Assembly (NCBI GenBank): GCA_021819035.1
Contig: JAKASL010000001.1
Span: 620,001 to 684,000, forward strand
Source: an archaeon
GTDB lineage: Archaea; Thermoproteota; Nitrososphaeria; Nitrososphaerales; Gagatemarchaeaceae
Length of the DNA: 64,000 bases
Direction of reading: 5' to 3'
A program made the position numbers and the translations under genes. This document shows positions 32,852 through 44,902 of the stretch, one piece after another (position 1 is the stretch's first letter; each line of letters starts with the position of its first letter). Below the pieces are notes generated by a model. That model saw nothing but the letters and a program-made list of their open reading frames with translations, ran no database searches and was not told the DNA's origin.

Positions 32852-33289
32852 TCAGGCTCTGTTTGGACGAAGAATCGGGATTTTCAATCCCAGCCCCCCA
32901 TAGTCAGCCTCGTTCCAGGTGACGAATCCGTCCGAGGTAGCCTCTGCCTGAGCTGCTATCAAGAAGTCAGGGAGTATCCTGACAGGCGCGGCCTTACCTT
33001 TCAGCACTCTCGAGTAAAGTTCACCGGCTCTCCTTGCCACTTTCAAGGACCTGGATGTCCTGACCTCCACGCCGTTGACCTTGAGAAGGCTCTGGACCCT
33101 GGTCTCCTCGACCTTCGGGTCTGGTGCCAGGAATATCCCGGCGTAGAGTTCGGAATAGACCACGTCAGGTATGACGAGTTGCTTCTTGCGTTCCATGGCT
33201 CGACGAAGGAACGAGTCGGTCTCCTCGGCGAACCTGTCTCCGCTCAGGTGGCTGATCAGCACGCTGGTGTCCAGCGAGAGCGTCGTCAT
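32852..33289 (-). CDS. vapC: PIN-domain toxin VapC
   Basis: 145 residues, a textbook VapC. SLDTSVLISHL (D7), PDVVYSELYAGI (Glu), PVRILPDFLIAAQA (Asp) and the C-terminal TWNEADYG (the usual Asp position reads Asn, with further acids beside it). It cleaves RNA when freed from its antitoxin. The ATG overlaps the stop of the antitoxin gene by 4 bp (ATGA), the usual translational coupling. Confidence 0.85.
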   Translation of the reverse strand: MTTLSLDTSVLISHLSGDRFAEETDSFLRRAMERKKQLVIPDVVYSELYAGIFLAPDPKVEETRVQSLLKVNGVEVRTSRSLKVARRAGELYSRVLKGKAAPVRILPDFLIAAQAEATSDGFVTWNEADYGGLGLKIPILRPNRA

Positions 33290-33540
33290 CTCTTCGCGCG
33301 CTTCCCTCTGAGCCAGTGAACCATCTCAACGGAGTCCTTCATGCCGGCAAAGGCCGGATGCGACTTCCAAGCCCCCCTCGTCTCCCTCATCACTTCTCCC
33401 CAGTTCCTCCCCACTCTTTCAATCACCACCTTCCCCTCATGGCTGCTGACGTCCACTACGTCGCCGACGTTTATTCCAACCTCCTCCCTCACTTCTTCTG
33501 GGATGGTGATCTGGTACCGTCTGGCCACCTTTGCCTTCAT
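33286..33540 (-). CDS. vapB: AbrB-family antitoxin VapB
   Basis: 84 residues. KAKVARRYQITIPEEVREEV and GINVGDVVDVSSHEGKVVIE give a complete AbrB-type DNA-binding domain; the C-terminal half (ETRGAWKSHPAF) should wrap the toxin. The gene is preceded by a perfect inverted repeat (33553-33579), a likely autoregulatory operator. Confidence 0.85.
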   Translation of the reverse strand: MKAKVARRYQITIPEEVREEVGINVGDVVDVSSHEGKVVIERVGRNWGEVMRETRGAWKSHPAFAGMKDSVEMVHWLRGKRAKR

Positions 33541-34489: not shown

Positions 34490-35380
34490 TCACCCATCCC
34501 TGGCGGCCTTCGCCCTGCGCTTGGCGAGGACGTCAAGCCAGGGGTTGTCCACAGTGGACTCGGGGACAGCCACCCCGGTCCCTCCCTCGGCCCTGGGCTG
34601 GACCTCCGGGGCGGCCGGCTTCGCCGCGACCTGCACCTTCGGGGGGGCCGCCTGCCTCGGCTGGGGGGCCATCACCCTCACGCTGGAGACGCTGGCCGCG
34701 GCGGGGGCGGTGTAGACGGCAGGCGCCGCCGTCTTCAGGCCGGAAAGGTCCTTCCTCACCGCCGTTATCTCTGACATGATCGACGTCACCTTCTCAGCCA
34801 GGGCTGGGTCGACCTTCTGGTCGTCCCCTTTCATCTGGAGCCCCACCTTGTTCACCGTGTCGGTGAGCTTGCGGAGCGTCGACTCGATGTCGGCGAACAC
34901 CCTCTCCGACGGCGGCTTGGTGAACGGCTGCAGCGCCACCCGGAAGACTATGAGCATGGCCCAGAGGAACGTCAGGGAGTAGACCCCTATGGGGAACTGG
35001 GGGAGGTAGAACAGGTAGAGGACGGTGTCCGCTGGGAACGGGTGCATGACAGGGAAGACGAAGCTCCAGACGAGCACCCCCACCACCCCTACCCAGGCCA
35101 TCACGTCGAGAAACGCCAGAGACAGGGACCCCGAGGGGCCGTGGACCTTCCGATACGAAGTGAACCTGAGGCCAAGGAGGGCCAGCCCCCCCAGCGCGCC
35201 GACCCCTGCCGTGGCTGCGTAGTCGTTGGTCAGCTCCCCGGCGTAGGGGGCCGCGATGAGGTAGACCAGCGCCACCGTGAGGGCTGCGAACGCCGCCAGG
35301 AGGAACCTGGCGCGGCCGACGGCCCCCCGGGGCTCCTTGGACAGGGCGGCCCGCCTCCTCTCACCCTCCTCGAATGTCAT
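34490..35380 (-). CDS. Membrane protein with helical and Pro/Ala-rich cytosolic tail; partner of the actin-like gene
   Basis: 296 residues. About four hydrophobic helices (residues 25-155) are followed by a predicted coiled-coil segment (ADIESTLRKLTDTVNKVGLQ to SEITAVRKDLSGLK). Then come a long Ala/Pro/Val linker and a conserved-looking end (NPWLDVLAKRRAKAARDG). It starts 9 bp after the actin-like gene's stop, so the two are almost certainly co-transcribed. Inference: it anchors or organises the filament at the membrane. I recognise no named family. Confidence 0.65.
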   Translation of the reverse strand: MTFEEGERRRAALSKEPRGAVGRARFLLAAFAALTVALVYLIAAPYAGELTNDYAATAGVGALGGLALLGLRFTSYRKVHGPSGSLSLAFLDVMAWVGVVGVLVWSFVFPVMHPFPADTVLYLFYLPQFPIGVYSLTFLWAMLIVFRVALQPFTKPPSERVFADIESTLRKLTDTVNKVGLQMKGDDQKVDPALAEKVTSIMSEITAVRKDLSGLKTAAPAVYTAPAAASVSSVRVMAPQPRQAAPPKVQVAAKPAAPEVQPRAEGGTGVAVPESTVDNPWLDVLAKRRAKAARDG

Positions 35381-35389
35381 GGAGGGGGC

Positions 35390-38257
35390 TCACCTGTCCA
35401 GGTACTGCCAGCCTTCGCGCTCGTCCCAGTCCCAGGTGAAGTCGTCGGGGATGTAGAGGCCGTAGGCGACGCACCCCTGCCAGACGTTGTAGACCGGGTT
35501 CTTCGTGAGCGTGACGTTGACCCCCTGTATCCCCTTGTCCTCCAGCATCAGCTTCAGCTTCGTCGAGGAGTCGACCGCGGCCCCCTCCATCCCCTGGGGG
35601 ACCTGCCATGAGAACCCGCCCCCAGAGAGGAAGATAGAGCGGTACAGGGCCGGCTGGACCTCGAAGCTGCACTTCTGGACGGACTGGATGATCACCTCGG
35701 CGAGGTCCGTGGTCCCGGACACAAGCTTCCCCTCCGAGTACGAGTCGGCAGGCTTCGGGAACCCCCTGCGGTAGTAGGACGAGAAGTACTCGTTGGAGGG
35801 GTCGAAGAAGTACTCCCCAATGAGGAAGCGCTGCCAGCTGTTCCTTTCCAGGTCGATGGATATCCTCGTGTTGGGGACCCTGAAGACGGCGCCGTACTTC
35901 GGGTTGGCCTTGTCCGCCATCACCTCCTTCAGGCTCCTCGGCACCAGCCCCAGGGACTCCTTGAACAGCTTGACCAGCTTCGGCTCGCGGGCGAGGTCCC
36001 CGTAGCCGGCGTCCCTCAGTATCTCTGCGGCCACCAGGTCGCAGTCCCCTCCCGCCCTGTTCAGCGTTATGAGGGCGTTGAATATCATACCGCTGCTGAT
36101 GGGGGCTACCTGGGTATTGTGGACAAAGATCCCACCGTTCCCCGCAAGGAACGTCTCGTTTCCAGGGCACGAGACATCGTAGACGTACTTGGAGTTTGGC
36201 TTGACCGTCTTTATCTCGACTACCTCGTCCCAGAATAGGTCGCTCTCAGCGAGGCTCGTCAGCCAGAGCAGTGCCTCTGATTTTGCTCCTCTGGTATACG
36301 CAGAAACTAGCTGGGATAGCCTTGCCCCAGACGGTCTGTTCTTTCCTTCCTCGTATTGGAGCGCCAGCCTCTGGCTGATGCCGAGCTTGGATGCCACCTC
36401 CACCGACTTCGCCTCGCCTCGAGCTTCCCTTAGCAGCTCGCCGCATGGGACGACGTCGGCATTGGTGTTCGCTCTGGGTCTGAGCATGAGGAAACCACCC
36501 GCAAACTTCCTCGACGAAGCGAACCCGATCTCCCGCAGGAATGCAGCGACATCTGCGGTACCGCCTATCTGGATCGCGTGGTAGGTCCCGACCCGGTTCT
36601 TCGACTCTATCCTCCTGAGCCGGGTGCGGGCGACGATGCCGAATCGGAGCAGCGCGACTACCAGCTCGGAAGCGAGCGTGGCGCTCTTGGTCGCCGCCTC
36701 GATGCTCTGCCCTCCCCTCCTGCTCTGCAAAGGAGCGCTACCTTCCCCTTCGTAATAGCACGCTAAAGCTATGGCGAGCCTCTCCGGCGCCTGGGACAGC
36801 AGCAACGGCCCGAAGCGCTTGCTTCCCGCGTCAGTGCCAAAGAGTTTGAAGAACAGCCTCGACAGCACGAGGTTGTCGACCACGAACGTCCCGTGCCTCT
36901 GCAGGTCGGTAAGCGTCGCGAATCTCCGGAAATAGGACCTGACGTATTCGTCCAGCCATCCACATTCTGTGCTGCAGACACCCATCTCTTGGCCGTGGGT
37001 CATTCCCTCGGCTATGTAGACTCCTGCCGCGGCAAGGAACCCTTCGTCGACGGCGACTAGGTTGCTCATTTTCGTTCCGCCCCTTGCGGAGATTTTGACG
37101 TCTTCTGACGCGAGGCCCAGAAGCTTCTCAAGCTTCCTATACTTGTCGGCTCTGATGGACTCCCCTCTGGCGACGATCCCGCTCAGAGAAGAACCGAGGG
37201 CGCGCCTGACCCCTCGTTCATGCCTGTGTTTTCTCACCAGCTCCCTGGTCTCGTCTGTAGCTATGACTCTGAGCCACTTCGGATATCCAAGTGCCCGGAG
37301 AACATTGATCTTGTCTGGGCCTGTTCCAGTGAAGCTGATTGACCGGGGGAGGGGGACATAATCACCTGCCTTCACATCGCCTGTCCTAAGCAGTTCTAGT
37401 CGTCCGCCTCGTAGCACGTAGAGGTTGTGGTCTTTGGTTATGGTAACCGTCCTCCCCTTCCGGGTCTTCACCTTGTAGAGCAGAGGCGGCGAAGGATGCC
37501 TGTAGACCTCCTTGACCTTCCGGAACGACACCTTCAGGCTGTAGGGGTCAAACGACAGGACTGAAAGGTCGTAATCGACAGGAGCACACTGCGTCCCTTG
37601 CCTCTCCTCGAAACCCCTTTCGATGATCGGGTCCACGACCTCGCCAATCTTGACCATCCCGATCTTGTCCCCCGAACGGACAAGGATTGGCTGATCATAA
37701 GTGACGGAGTTCCCCGCCCCCGCCTCGAGGACCGTGCACGCCAGGACCTTCTGAGATATGGCCACCGCGAACGGCTGGGGGATGACGGACAATGCCCTCA
37801 CCAGCTTCCTCCCCTCCTCCTGGTTCACCTCCCTGTGTATGTCGAAGAGCCTCTCGTACATGTACCTCGGCGCCGCCGCCGAGAGGGCAGCCACCGCGTT
37901 GACCCCTTCGAACCCCGGGACCTCGGGGACGTGCCTCAGCAGCGCGTACCTCGTCAGCTCCTTCACCACGGACCAGGACCTGTCGTCGTCCCTGTCGATG
38001 ACCCCGCTGCGCATGGGGTAGACCATCCGCTCAGCGATGTCCCGCTTCGCCTCCACGAAGTTGGAGACGTCCGGGCCTACCACGAGGAGCTTCTTGTCCG
38101 GCCCCCCCGTCATCCTGACCATGGAGCTCCTGGTGTCGGGGAAGTAGCCCCTGTTCTCTATCACGTCGGGGACGTTCCCCAGGGTCGCGGGGCCGAACTT
38201 CAGCTCGGACGTGCCATAGTCCTCGCCGAAGACGCGAAGTTCCTTGGGCGCTGACAA
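35390..38257 (-). CDS. Actin-like ATPase precursor interrupted by an intein
   Basis: 955-residue precursor. The spliced host is 183 + 241 = 424 residues and carries actin-fold motifs: phosphate-1 FGEDYGTSELKFG (residues 10-22), phosphate-2 LEAGAGN/TQVAPISSG across the splice junction, and the adenosine motif LSGGGFSWQVPQGM. Actin-like ATPases polymerise for cell shape, division or DNA segregation. The intein (36116-37708) interrupts phosphate-2, so ATP binding should require splicing. TTG start at 38257; TATA at 38284-38292. The gene is followed at 9 bp by a membrane/coiled-coil protein. Whether it is closest to crenactin-, Ta0583- or ParM-like proteins needs comparison. Confidence 0.8.
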   Translation of the reverse strand: MSAPKELRVFGEDYGTSELKFGPATLGNVPDVIENRGYFPDTRSSMVRMTGGPDKKLLVVGPDVSNFVEAKRDIAERMVYPMRSGVIDRDDDRSWSVVKELTRYALLRHVPEVPGFEGVNAVAALSAAAPRYMYERLFDIHREVNQEEGRKLVRALSVIPQPFAVAISQKVLACTVLEAGAGNSVTYDQPILVRSGDKIGMVKIGEVVDPIIERGFEERQGTQCAPVDYDLSVLSFDPYSLKVSFRKVKEVYRHPSPPLLYKVKTRKGRTVTITKDHNLYVLRGGRLELLRTGDVKAGDYVPLPRSISFTGTGPDKINVLRALGYPKWLRVIATDETRELVRKHRHERGVRRALGSSLSGIVARGESIRADKYRKLEKLLGLASEDVKISARGGTKMSNLVAVDEGFLAAAGVYIAEGMTHGQEMGVCSTECGWLDEYVRSYFRRFATLTDLQRHGTFVVDNLVLSRLFFKLFGTDAGSKRFGPLLLSQAPERLAIALACYYEGEGSAPLQSRRGGQSIEAATKSATLASELVVALLRFGIVARTRLRRIESKNRVGTYHAIQIGGTADVAAFLREIGFASSRKFAGGFLMLRPRANTNADVVPCGELLREARGEAKSVEVASKLGISQRLALQYEEGKNRPSGARLSQLVSAYTRGAKSEALLWLTSLAESDLFWDEVVEIKTVKPNSKYVYDVSCPGNETFLAGNGGIFVHNTQVAPISSGMIFNALITLNRAGGDCDLVAAEILRDAGYGDLAREPKLVKLFKESLGLVPRSLKEVMADKANPKYGAVFRVPNTRISIDLERNSWQRFLIGEYFFDPSNEYFSSYYRRGFPKPADSYSEGKLVSGTTDLAEVIIQSVQKCSFEVQPALYRSIFLSGGGFSWQVPQGMEGAAVDSSTKLKLMLEDKGIQGVNVTLTKNPVYNVWQGCVAYGLYIPDDFTWDWDEREGWQYLDR
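36116..37708 (-). other. Intein with LAGLIDADG endonuclease and an XRE-like HTH
   Basis: 531 residues (184-714 of the precursor). It starts with Ser (SVTYDQPILVRSG), has block B TKDH at 274-277, and two LAGLIDADG-type helices, FLAAAGVYIAEG (407-418) and LAIALACYYEGEG (494-506). A helix-turn-helix follows at about 617-655 (VEVASKLGISQRLALQYEE). It ends GGIFVHN with Thr as the first C-extein residue. All splice residues look competent. The endonuclease could home into intein-less alleles. Base use seems less G/C-extreme than in the host gene. Confidence 0.85.
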
Positions 38258-38356: not shown

Positions 38357-38521
38357 CTAACCCTGGTCCGGAGGGCGGGAGTCCCTGCGGGGGTAGGTCT
38401 GCGGTGCTCCGCTGGCCCTGACCCCCCTGCCGCTCCGCCATGCCTGGTAGAACAGCAGGAGGAACGAGAAGAAGGCGGTGGTGAACAGGAACAGGAACAG
38501 CAGGACGGAGAATATGGTCAT
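38357..38521 (-). CDS. 54-residue single-pass membrane peptide
   Basis: Too short for usual gene finding. One hydrophobic helix (MTIFSVLLFLFLFTTAFFSF and onward), then a basic/Pro-rich cytosolic tail. Its ATG overlaps the stop of the 38518 gene (ATGA), so it is the fourth cistron of the membrane operon. The tight coupling and good codon use argue it is real. It may be a small subunit of the complex made by the three upstream genes. Confidence 0.6.
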   Translation of the reverse strand: MTIFSVLLFLFLFTTAFFSFLLLFYQAWRSGRGVRASGAPQTYPRRDSRPPDQG

Positions 38522-39459
38522 CTGAGCCCCTCCGCCTCTCCGTGACTCTTCCGCTCCCTAGAGCCGCCGTCGAACGGCGCGGCGAGCACGAGGACCAGGA
38601 AACCGTAGGCGAAGGCGACCGCCTCCCCCATCATCACCAGGTAGGTGGTGGTGGCGCCTGCTCCGGGGACGAGCCCGGCCGCTATCACCCCCGCCCCCCC
38701 GGCCATGCAGACGGCCGCCAGGCCGAAGATGGCGAACAGCCACCTCTGACGGGACACCCGCAGGGGGAGCGCGATGGAGCCCTCGAACATGGAGAGCACC
38801 AGGACGCCGAGCAGCAGCGAGATCGTGACTGCGGCGAGCCCGAAGTGGATGGCGACCGCCGTCGAGTAGAGTGCAGCCAGGGACGACGACAGCGCGATGG
38901 TCATGGTCGAGACCCCCGCGACCGCGGTGATGGCCAGCGCGACGAGGGCGATCATGGCAAGCCCTGCCGCAGGGGACCCCTCTTCCCCCCTGTCAGCGCC
39001 GTTGGACCTGACGATCCTCGCCTCCTTGTCCATGGAGTAGCCGGTGACGGGCATCCCGAACCCCGCCACCGATATCATGGTCAGGTTGGTAGTGGTGACC
39101 TGGGCCCCGCTGGACGTGTCCCCCAGCAGCAGGAACCCTGCGACCCCCGCCGCGACTATGACCAGGAAGAAAGCCGTGTTGAGGAATGCTATGTCCTTCT
39201 GGTGCTGCAGCATGGCCAGGAAGCCTAGCCCCGCTGTCAGGCTGGCCAGGGTGGAGGCGAGGACGACGTGCACCACCACCTCGGGCTGGGTGACCGCGAT
39301 GCTGGACGCCATCACGACGGCCAGCCAGACACCCATCACGTAGGTGACCGCCAGGAAGAAAGCCTGGGCGTACATCAGGGTGAGCAGGCGCCGGGTCTGA
39401 CGGACGAACAGCCCCGGGAGGACGTCGTGCGAAGCGTTGGTCAGCTCCTGCGACGTCAT
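38518..39459 (-). CDS. Polytopic membrane protein, unknown (operon gene 3)
   Basis: 313 residues from ATG 39459, which overlaps the preceding gene's stop (ATGA). About eight hydrophobic helices; an Asp/Glu/Arg-rich loop near residues 160-175 (SMDKEARIVRSNGADRGEEG) probably faces the cytosol. I see no transporter, sensor or enzyme motif. It is encoded with two other membrane proteins and a 54-residue peptide, so a multi-subunit membrane complex is likely. Confidence 0.65.
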   Translation of the reverse strand: MTSQELTNASHDVLPGLFVRQTRRLLTLMYAQAFFLAVTYVMGVWLAVVMASSIAVTQPEVVVHVVLASTLASLTAGLGFLAMLQHQKDIAFLNTAFFLVIVAAGVAGFLLLGDTSSGAQVTTTNLTMISVAGFGMPVTGYSMDKEARIVRSNGADRGEEGSPAAGLAMIALVALAITAVAGVSTMTIALSSSLAALYSTAVAIHFGLAAVTISLLLGVLVLSMFEGSIALPLRVSRQRWLFAIFGLAAVCMAGGAGVIAAGLVPGAGATTTYLVMMGEAVAFAYGFLVLVLAAPFDGGSRERKSHGEAEGLR

Positions 39460-39980
39460 GGCGCCCCACTCCTTTGGTCCAGGGCCTCGATGAGCCTGAC
39501 CGCCCTCATTATCTTCAGGGTGGCATAGTATGACAGGAATATGGCGAGCATGAACAGGAGGGACATCTCCCACCCTGCGGCGAGCGTCTCCGACCCCGAG
39601 ACCCTCGACCCGCCTGTGATGAGGAAGAGAGCGCCCCCGGCCGTGGCCGCTATGAGGGAGGCGATGGCGCCGAAGCTGTACATGGCGACCTTCTTCATCC
39701 CATAGACGACCCCGACCATCATTATGACGAAGGTCAGCGCGAAGTTCCCAGCGGCGAAGAGCATGTGGACGAGGTTCGCCGGATTGCTGATGCCGACGGT
39801 GTCCACCCCCGACGTGATGAATATGTTGACGTACATGCCTGTGACGAGGAGCATGAAATACATGACGAAGTTGGCGTAGCTCAGCCTCAGGGTCAGCGTG
39901 AGCCCCCGCAGCCCGAGGCTGCCTATCTCCTCCCCCTGCAGCAGGGAGGCGGACTGGTAGGTCCCCAACTCAGCTGTCAC
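39456..39980 (-). CDS. Polytopic membrane protein, unknown (operon gene 2)
   Basis: 174 residues, four hydrophobic helices (about 35-55, 70-92, 98-118, 135-155). Start is GTG at 39980, overlapping gene 1 by 11 bp. The N-terminus (GEEIGSLGLRGLTLTLRLSY) may form an amphipathic helix. The family is unknown to me; conserved His/Asn residues near helix 2 (NPANLVHMLFAAGN) could bind a cofactor, but this is a guess. Confidence 0.6.
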   Translation of the reverse strand: MTAELGTYQSASLLQGEEIGSLGLRGLTLTLRLSYANFVMYFMLLVTGMYVNIFITSGVDTVGISNPANLVHMLFAAGNFALTFVIMMVGVVYGMKKVAMYSFGAIASLIAATAGGALFLITGGSRVSGSETLAAGWEMSLLFMLAIFLSYYATLKIMRAVRLIEALDQRSGAP

Positions 39981-40692
39981 TGCTCCTCAGGGGGACCGAG
40001 ACCGTGGGCCGGCCGACGGCTATGGACTTCAGGCGTACGTCCTCCCTGACGATGAATATCCTGCTCAGCAGCGTCAGGAACACCGCGACGCCGAAGACAG
40101 ACACCATGACGAGGGAGGCGACGCTCCCTGAGAAGATGATGGATATGGGGGAGGTAAGGTAGTAGATGTAGAGGGGGCCCATGAAGAAGCCGACTGTCCT
40201 GACGCAGATGGCCCCGACGTGCAGCCTCGTGACGTCCTTCAGCTTGATCCGCCTCGCCAGGTAGATCACCGGGACGCTCATGCTGGTGCTGAGTATGGCC
40301 ATCAGGACGTGGGTGAAGAGGTCAGGCGCCATGATGACCTCGGTCACTATCTGCACCAGGGTCGGCTGCAGGCTCCCGGGGACGAGGAAGTAGTAGTTGG
40401 TGAACATCCCGGCGGCGAACGTCCCCCAGTAGTAGGCGTACTGGACGTAGAGGAGGAGGAAGAGGCGGTGGAGCGTGTCGCGCGTCTTCTCGCTGTCGGC
40501 GCCCGCTTCCACCCCGCGGACGGTCCTCGCGTTGCGGAGGGCGAAGGCGACGGTTATCGCTATGAGCACGGCACCGGTGCCGTAGACAAGCAGCCGCGAC
40601 TGGATCCCTAGACCAAGGAATATGAAGCCGGAGAAGACGAAGATTATCAGCATCATCGCGGCGTCGACGCCGATCGGGAACTTGCTGGCCAT
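39970..40692 (-). CDS. Polytopic membrane protein, unknown (operon gene 1)
   Basis: 240 residues, about six helices, with His in several (LHRLFLLLYVQYAYYW, LFTHVLMAIL, TRLHVGAICVRT). First gene of a four-gene operon whose members overlap. ATG 40692 is matched by a TATA-like CTAATAC at 40713-40719. The His pattern could suggest a haem or quinone protein, but no cytochrome-b signature is clear. It lies upstream of the actin-like operon on the same strand. Confidence 0.6.
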   Translation of the reverse strand: MASKFPIGVDAAMMLIIFVFSGFIFLGLGIQSRLLVYGTGAVLIAITVAFALRNARTVRGVEAGADSEKTRDTLHRLFLLLYVQYAYYWGTFAAGMFTNYYFLVPGSLQPTLVQIVTEVIMAPDLFTHVLMAILSTSMSVPVIYLARRIKLKDVTRLHVGAICVRTVGFFMGPLYIYYLTSPISIIFSGSVASLVMVSVFGVAVFLTLLSRIFIVREDVRLKSIAVGRPTVSVPLRSSDS

Positions 40693-40872: not shown

Positions 40873-41817
40873 CTAAGCGGCCAGCCTCTCCATCGCCGCC
40901 TTGAGCTCCTTCTCCACCTTCTCGGCCTGGTCCAGCTCCGAAGCCCTGGGCCACACCCTGCGGGCGTAGTCTGCCATGGGCATCCCGCGCTGGAGCTCGG
41001 ACACAAGGACCTTCACGTCAGAGTCCGCCTGGGACCTCAGCATCATAACCTCCATCAGCCGCTTGTTAGCCCTGGCCCGCACCCCCCTCGCCCTCTCGAG
41101 GGCCTGGCGGTACTCCATGGAGGTGGCGCCGAGCCGCTTCGCGTTCTCGAGCTCGAGCTCGGACCTGGCCACGTCTGCCAGCAGCCCTGCGTCGACCCCG
41201 AGGCCCCGCACGTCTATCCTCGGCTTCATGGCCTGGAGGAGCTCCTCGGCGCTCTCGACTATCATGAACTTCCCGCCCGTCTTGGCTGCGACCTTCTCGA
41301 GCGTCCCCCTGTTGATCTTCCCCCCGATGGCTATGACGTCGATTATCGCCTTCAGGGCCACCTCGTCGCTGACCACCTTCTCTGGCTTGGGGCCGACGTT
41401 GGACTTCTCGTCAGTGACCATCACGAGCTTCTTTATCCTCCTGAGGGGCCCGTTGTCGGCGGCGTAGAGGAGGCGGAGCCCTTCCTCGATAGCCATCCCC
41501 GTGGGGGTCGCCCCCCCGACCTTCACCCCCGCGAGGGCCGCCTGCATCTGCGCCTTGGCCATGGACCCTATGGGGCTGATGGGGACCGCCACCTTCATCA
41601 TCTCTTCGCCCCCCTTGAGGAACATCCCCCCCGCCCTGGTCGGCGCCTGGAAGGTCATCACCCCCAGCCTGCTCCCGAAGGGGAGCTGGCCGCCGTCGAG
41701 GAGGCCGACTATGGTGCTGGCGACGAGGCTCATCTTGACGAAGCTGGTACCGTGGGGGGACCTGTGGGTGTCCGCCATGCTGGAGGAGGCGTCGACGGCG
41801 TAGAGGATGTCCCACAA
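40873..41817 (-). CDS. von Willebrand factor A (VWA) domain protein
   Basis: 314 residues. Residues 1-200 are a VWA domain: MIDAS Asp-x-Ser-x-Ser in AVDASSSM (D9, S11, S13), the Thr in GGATPTGMAI, and VMVTDEKSN. The rest is helical and charged, rich in Lys/Arg/Glu (ELENAKRLG, AEKVEKELKAAM), possibly a coiled coil. VWA domains mediate metal-dependent protein binding; in archaea they often serve AAA chaperones or surface complexes. No signal peptide is present. TTG start with a TATA (AGATATAG) at 41841-41849. Confidence 0.75.
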   Translation of the reverse strand: MWDILYAVDASSSMADTHRSPHGTSFVKMSLVASTIVGLLDGGQLPFGSRLGVMTFQAPTRAGGMFLKGGEEMMKVAVPISPIGSMAKAQMQAALAGVKVGGATPTGMAIEEGLRLLYAADNGPLRRIKKLVMVTDEKSNVGPKPEKVVSDEVALKAIIDVIAIGGKINRGTLEKVAAKTGGKFMIVESAEELLQAMKPRIDVRGLGVDAGLLADVARSELELENAKRLGATSMEYRQALERARGVRARANKRLMEVMMLRSQADSDVKVLVSELQRGMPMADYARRVWPRASELDQAEKVEKELKAAMERLAA

Positions 41818-43972: not shown

Positions 43973-44902
43973 CTAGGAGGGTGTTGCCTTGACCTGCGCT
44001 CCCAAGACTGCCTGGTTCGCAGGTTTCATTCTGCCAATGTAGAGCAGAAGGATGACCATGTATCCTGCCACGTATAGGACGTAGCCCAGCCATCCGTGCA
44101 GGTTCCAGAGCACGCCTTCGCCGTAGTAGATGCCCCCTATGATGAGCACCACCACCCTGAGAGAATTGAGGAGGATGAACAGGACTGACCCTCCCACCGC
44201 GAACATGGCTGTGACCCCCAGGCTAGGCCTGACGTCGAGGTGCATCAGCGCGATCAGCAGGAGGAAGATGGACATTGACGCCATCCCCGAGCATTCCTGC
44301 GAGATGTAGAGGGACATCGGGACGCCCCCCGCCGCGGTGAAGCTCATGTAGACGCTCGTCCATGCGACGTTCAGCCCGAGCGCAGACGTCATGGCCCTGC
44401 TCAACCAGGCGACCACGACCGCCAGTGGGTCGCCGAACGCGGTCGTCAGGAGCCCCACCGCGCCTACCGCCAGAAGGAACGCGAGCAGGTACGGCCAGAG
44501 GAACGACAATGATTTAGGCCTCATCGCCACGAGGACCCCCACCCAGCCGGTGGCGAGAGCCATCGCCGCGTAAGAGTAAGACCCGTCCAAAGCTCCCCCC
44601 GCGCCGAGGAGCGCCACCAGGGGGACGACCGCCATGACGACGCCAAGCGCGCCTATCTCTGCGTCCCAGCGCCTCGGCCGGAGGCTCTCGACGAAGTCGG
44701 CCTTCCTGAGTGCGATGAACATCACCACGAAGAACATCCCTGCGAGGGGGAAGGCGGGGACGCTCGTGTCGAACACCCCGTTGAACACCTCCCCTACCTT
44801 GAGGAGGAGCAGAAGTGCCTGCTGGCTATACATCGCGAGCGAGACCGCAGTGGCGGCCACCAGAGGGGCCAGGACCTTCAGCGGGTCGCCCTGCTTGTTC
44901 AA
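43973..44902 (-). CDS. Exosortase/archaeosortase family membrane transpeptidase
   Basis: 309 residues, about eight to nine helices. The exosortase catalytic triad is present: Cys204 in SQECSGMASM, Arg249 in LLNSLRVVVLI and His269 in NLHGWLGYVLY. These enzymes cut C-terminal sorting signals (PEF, PGF and similar) and attach surface proteins. It faces the coupled RHH/secreted-protein genes head-on. Candidate substrates in this window are the proteins at 4224-5586 and 42583-43500. TTG start; TATA-like GATTAATC near 44931-44939. Confidence 0.85.
   Translation of the reverse strand: MNKQGDPLKVLAPLVAATAVSLAMYSQQALLLLLKVGEVFNGVFDTSVPAFPLAGMFFVVMFIALRKADFVESLRPRRWDAEIGALGVVMAVVPLVALLGAGGALDGSYSYAAMALATGWVGVLVAMRPKSLSFLWPYLLAFLLAVGAVGLLTTAFGDPLAVVVAWLSRAMTSALGLNVAWTSVYMSFTAAGGVPMSLYISQECSGMASMSIFLLLIALMHLDVRPSLGVTAMFAVGGSVLFILLNSLRVVVLIIGGIYYGEGVLWNLHGWLGYVLYVAGYMVILLLYIGRMKPANQAVLGAQVKATPS

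Follow-up and report, generated by a model that had tools for sequence, protein, structure and literature searches.

The window analysed in this study was a 64,000-nucleotide stretch of the 1.67 Mb genome of an uncultured archaeon of the Thaumarchaeota group. Positions 35390–38257 of its minus strand formed a single ORF of 955 codons with a TTG start, which lay at the same place in the crenactin ORFs of relatives in the genus. The original prediction had described this ORF as an archaeal actin-like ATPase split by a 531-residue intein, running from Ser to GGIFVHN, between LEAGAGN and TQVAPISSG. The ORF, its length, the insert and both junctions were all exactly as claimed (Table 1). Removal of residues 184–714 gave a spliced sequence of 424 aa.

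The spliced sequence matched the Pfam Actin family (PF00022) at 6.7e-11 (41.8 bits, cut-off 27), and its closest PDB match was Pyrobaculum calidifontis crenactin (4CJ7; E 2e-93, residues 9–421); the predicted membership of the actin family thus held. The IPQP motif aligned, and the catalytic Gln region was kept. The host protein aligned over its whole length with P. calidifontis crenactin (PDB 4CJ7, 5LY3), but it differed from it in having an intein and in scoring below the equivalog cut-off of the NCBIfam crenactin model NF053560 (5e-147; 490 bits, cut-off 630), which 42 of the 129 matching genomes of the phylum passed. The protein is therefore named a crenactin homologue (crenactin-type) and not an NF053560 equivalog. 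By sequence comparison, an intein in a crenactin-type archaeal actin gene was confirmed.

Table 1. Features of the crenactin locus (positions in the window)
Feature	Position	Strand	Basis
C-terminal VPESTVDNPWLDVLAKRR membrane protein, downstream, like arcadin-2-position proteins	34490..35380	-	sequence comparison
C-extein of crenactin	35390..36115	-	starts TQVAPISSG; stop codon included; crenactin match
Intein C-terminal splicing region ending GGIFVHN	36116..36283	-	TIGR01443 residues 508–531
Intein, 531 aa, Ser1 to Asn531	36116..37708	-	PF14890, TIGR01445, TIGR01443; empty alleles in relatives
Probable helix-turn-helix (~intein residues 427–475), below Pfam cut-off	36284..36430	-	HTH_3; HTH_31/HTH_3 in G023 allele
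LAGLIDADG homing endonuclease region (~residues 215–400)	36509..37066	-	PF14528 residues 315–395; dN/dS 0.13
LAGLIDADG motif 2, LAIALACYYEGEG (intein residues 311–323; ...YYEGEG)	36740..36778	-	sequence
LAGLIDADG motif 1, FLAAAGVYIAEG (intein residues 224–235; ...YIAEG)	37004..37039	-	sequence
Intein N-terminal splicing region (~residues 1–130)	37319..37708	-	TIGR01445 residues 2–98; PDB inteins 5o9j, 2cw7
Block B TKDH (intein residues 91–94)	37427..37438	-	sequence; invariant in three alleles
N-extein of crenactin	37709..38257	-	183 codons, TTG start, ends LEAGAGN; crenactin match
VWA-domain protein encoded upstream, conserved next to crenactin in relatives	40873..41817	-	PF00092 1.6e-11; synteny

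The downstream gene encoded about three hydrophobic segments and a linker, followed by VPESTVDNPWLDVLAKRR and a short tail. The same motif closed crenactin-adjoining proteins in Pyrobaculum-like, bathyarchaeal, brockarchaeal and other genomes. Filaments are depolymerised by P. calidifontis arcadin-2, whose 17 C-terminal residues bind a groove of crenactin with a tryptophan at the contact (PMC5173319). The gene product here shared its closing NPW motif with Pyrobaculum-type arcadin-2, but its arcadin-2-like part was fused to a membrane part. Judged by these features, it is probably a partner of crenactin and possibly a membrane-anchored arcadin-2; the fusion suggests that crenactin may be controlled at the membrane. 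The gene was present in 8 of the 31 genomes of the genus, seven of which had crenactin. In the eighth, G013 (C7:6351–7226), no crenactin was detected, and in G016 (C1:873889–874761) the gene lay far from crenactin.

Three consecutive ORFs with multiple hydrophobic segments and no family match were located at 38518–40692 (minus strand); of the relatives, only some (L019, L022 and L028) had such ORFs upstream of crenactin. A protein of the exosortase/archaeosortase family (43973–44902, minus strand; TIGR04178, PF09721) was encoded near crenactin, and relatives of it were also near crenactin in L022, L026 and L028. A toxin-antitoxin-like pair, composed of a PIN-domain VapC-type protein and a MazE/AbrB-type partner, was located at 32852–33540 (minus strand).

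Intein and insertion site

The insert matched Intein_splicing PF14890 (5.6e-18; 65.6 bits, cut-off 35.8), TIGR01445 (1.3e-13; 51.7 bits, cut-off 24.5), TIGR01443 (5.4e-7; 29.7 bits, cut-off 15.6) and LAGLIDADG_3 PF14528 (4.4e-10; 40.1 bits, cut-off 22.5). The intein that had been predicted from Ser1, TKDH, the GGIFVHN end and two LAGLIDADG motifs was thus recognised by intein and LAGLIDADG profiles above their cut-offs. The splicing residues Ser1, TKDH 91–94, HN 530–531 and Thr+1 were all intact, and the two-motif LAGLIDADG domain had its acidic residues. Among PDB entries, PI-PkoII was the best relative, matching parts of both the splicing and the endonuclease regions. The claimed helix-turn-helix is probable but weaker than first described: HTH_3 reached 19.4 bits, below its cut-off of 23, although sub-threshold matches occurred at the same place in the G023 allele and in a UvrB intein. 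The low quality of the AlphaFold2 models (pLDDT 49 for the precursor, 35 for the intein alone) precluded a fold comparison.

The codon usage of the intein is foreign to the exteins, with a GC3 of 0.71 compared with 0.93 in both exteins. The dN/dS of the intein pair from G000 and G023 was 0.12 overall. By region, it was 0.11 in the N-terminal splicing region, 0.22 in the middle, 0.13 in the endonuclease, 0.08 in the helix-turn-helix and 0.09 in the C-terminal splicing region; these ratios are rough, since the dS of 1.8 was near saturation. Both exteins and the intein were under purifying selection, with stops and frameshifts absent, and the LAGLIDADG endonuclease itself is under purifying selection.

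The intein was inserted after crenactin residue 183, at GAGN/T. In the PDB alignment, leagagn/tqvapissg lay opposite idsgdgv/thvipvaeg of Arp3, which places the junction within the phosphate-2 loop, as originally proposed. We take the junction to be equivalent to V159/T160 in actin numbering. In 52 crenactins outside the genus, residues E178, G180, H181, G182, N183, Q185 and P188 near the junction were invariant; most of the genus had Ala instead of His at residue 181.

Distribution and relatives of the intein

Crenactin was found in 10 of the 31 genomes of the genus: three with the intein, six empty and one cut off. The carriers (G000, G023 and G024) were all metagenome-assembled, and the G024 copy stopped at intein residue 218, the end of its contig. 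It had been proposed that relatives be searched for intein-less alleles, and the six empty ones (G008, G009, G016, G019, G022 and G029) joined GAGN or GHGN directly to xQ at the exact junction. The remaining copy, in G020 (L027 2005–2376), broke off near residue 125 within a contig of 252 kb and the remainder was not found; it is a lost or broken gene. The other 21 genomes had no crenactin, even though one of them was a single contig with a completeness rating of 100%, and crenactin is dispensable in the genus.

A survey of 398 genomes of the phylum gave a crenactin match in 129, with an intein-type interruption in G000 only; a few split matches were taken from the table as frame breaks or contig ends, G386 alone being checked. 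G386 was considered as another broken crenactin and rejected, since its sequence ends at the contig end.

The G000 intein was 94% identical to that of G024 (over 218 aa) and 70% identical to that of G023. In the crenactin DNA tree, G000 and G024 grouped with three empty alleles, apart from G023, and a single clade of carrier crenactins was rejected (AU p = 0.001). In the intein tree, the two full-length crenactin inteins were sisters (support 100/100). Non-monophyletic carriers with sister inteins point to one invasion of the site, followed by homing or loss. The flanks of the carriers G000 and G023 had no long tract of identity in common, and recent homing from one to the other was thus not supported. 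Over the 60 bases immediately 3' of the site, identity to G000 was lower in most empty alleles (0.73–0.87) than in G023 (0.85), a difference that is only suggestive.

The nearest inteins outside crenactin were in Walker A loops, directly before Thr. In the UvrB of G074 (L032), the Walker A loop was interrupted (GSGK/T) by a LAGLIDADG intein of 539 aa. This intein was 30% identical to the crenactin intein, with which it was co-linear over its full length (E 2e-60), and it grouped with the crenactin inteins (support 86/91). Like the crenactin intein, it had splicing, LAGLIDADG and HTH-like parts. VirB11/TadA-type ATPases of G068 and G065 also had inteins in the Walker A loop; the host names were read from the sequences. 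Inteins of archaeal/vacuolar ATPases and of RadA are known in Walker A loops. Like the crenactin intein, these Walker A inteins interrupt the phosphate-binding loop of archaeal ATPases, and the three found in this study (UvrB, G068 and G065) likewise directly precede a Thr, but the Walker A site is GK/T, whereas the site here is GAGN/T in the phosphate-2 loop of an actin-fold host. Movement of the intein from one phosphate loop to another appears likely.

The genus was rich in inteins, which occurred in 30 of the 31 genomes. The source genome had about nine intein genes: GlmS, topoisomerase VI A, a MoxR-like AAA protein (by sequence reading), CDC48, aIF2 gamma, an AmmeMemoRadiSam radical SAM enzyme, PolB1, Hel308 and crenactin. 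A scan of viral contigs with two short peptide patterns confirmed no relative of the intein and none was found in PHROGs, so a viral carrier is not indicated.

Proposed splicing and mobility of the crenactin intein

These results make it highly probable that the insert is a mobile class-1 LAGLIDADG intein living as a genetic parasite in a crenactin-type actin, predicted to be self-splicing and likely of Walker A origin. The insert is best read as an ordinary mobile intein whose host protein is new. The crenactin gene would be translated as a 955-aa precursor, from which the intein would excise itself by an acyl shift at Ser1, transesterification to Thr+1 and cyclisation of Asn531. The joining of GAGN to TQVAP would then rebuild the phosphate-2 loop and give a normal crenactin of 424 aa. 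The endonuclease would cut intein-less crenactin alleles and so spread the element. The source would most likely be the inteins in Walker A loops before Thr (GK/T), as in UvrB, one of which may have become established at the analogous phosphate loop (GN/T) of crenactin. From the sequences, we infer the splicing in the cell, the cutting activity and the route of the jump between loops.

Before splicing, the precursor would plausibly be unable to bind ATP or polymerise. It has been argued for other ATPases that an intein in such a loop should block nucleotide binding until it is removed (PMC2814812). The crenactin intein could serve as a natural release of an actin-like protein from an inactive precursor. 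The presence of carriers and empty alleles in one genus makes the inactivity of the actin precursor before splicing testable.

The original prediction had gone further and suggested that splicing could act as a post-translational switch. Under such a reading, slow or signal-dependent splicing would hold crenactin inactive until filaments are needed. The position inside a nucleotide-binding loop fits this idea, as does the P-loop intein of Pyrococcus RadA, whose splicing in its native exteins is temperature-dependent (PMC5790916). The P. horikoshii RadA intein likewise sits in the ATP-binding loop of an archaeal ATPase, but RadA has mini-inteins with Cys nucleophiles and temperature control, whereas the crenactin intein has an endonuclease and Ser1/Thr+1 (PMC5790916). 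Crenactin is uninterrupted in close relatives, so a switch is not needed; with Ser1 and Thr+1 as nucleophiles, a redox switch on a catalytic Cys is absent; and selection maintains the endonuclease, which is what a parasite would show. Conditional splicing is therefore not supported and seems very improbable.

An insertion that is dead or partly dead, with splicing failed and crenactin lost or left in two pieces, is marginally less probable still. The host gene could tolerate such a loss, being absent from 21 of the 31 genomes and truncated in G020, but the splicing residues are intact and kept in three alleles, selection maintains exteins and intein without stop or frameshift, and the probable partner gene downstream is intact. 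An assembly chimera of an intein fragment and crenactin is hardly credible: the carriers are all metagenome-assembled and one copy stops at a contig end, but the identical junction and reading frame in three separate assemblies argue against an assembly accident, as do the conserved neighbours and the intein identities of 70 and 94%.

The element apparently adds the actin superfamily to the known hosts of inteins, and it shows that two unrelated ATPase folds have related inteins in their phosphate loops. Inteins are common. The original prediction noted that none is known to have been described in an actin-fold cytoskeletal protein. The results listed by our literature search likewise contained no earlier intein in crenactin or another actin-fold protein; the search was limited to open-access papers, so priority is not proved.

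The phosphate-2 loop in empty alleles

It has been argued that conserved target sites make immunity to inteins hard to evolve (PMC2814812). Of the 52 crenactins outside the genus, 48 had Thr at the +1 position (crenactin residue 184), three had Ile and one had Ser. Both complete carriers also had Thr, but the five distinct empty alleles (L020, L021, L022, L025 and L026) had V, V, A, C and L. Val, Ala and Leu cannot act as a splicing nucleophile. It is conceivable, though doubtful, that crenactin of the genus is in an arms race with the intein, in which empty alleles have become poor targets by a changed phosphate-2 loop, above all by loss of the +1 Thr, while carriers keep Thr. The alternative is that the loop change in the genus is plain drift. 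If escape were true, a conserved catalytic loop of actin would have been reshaped by a parasite; since a single genus has both kinds of allele, such escape is testable. The Thr contrast at +1 gave a Fisher value of 3e-5 with relatedness ignored. Among 122 columns conserved at ≥85% outside the genus, residue 184 was the most diverse within it; of the five columns with the greatest diversity, three lay at residues 181–189 (hypergeometric 0.0018, for a region chosen after seeing the data).
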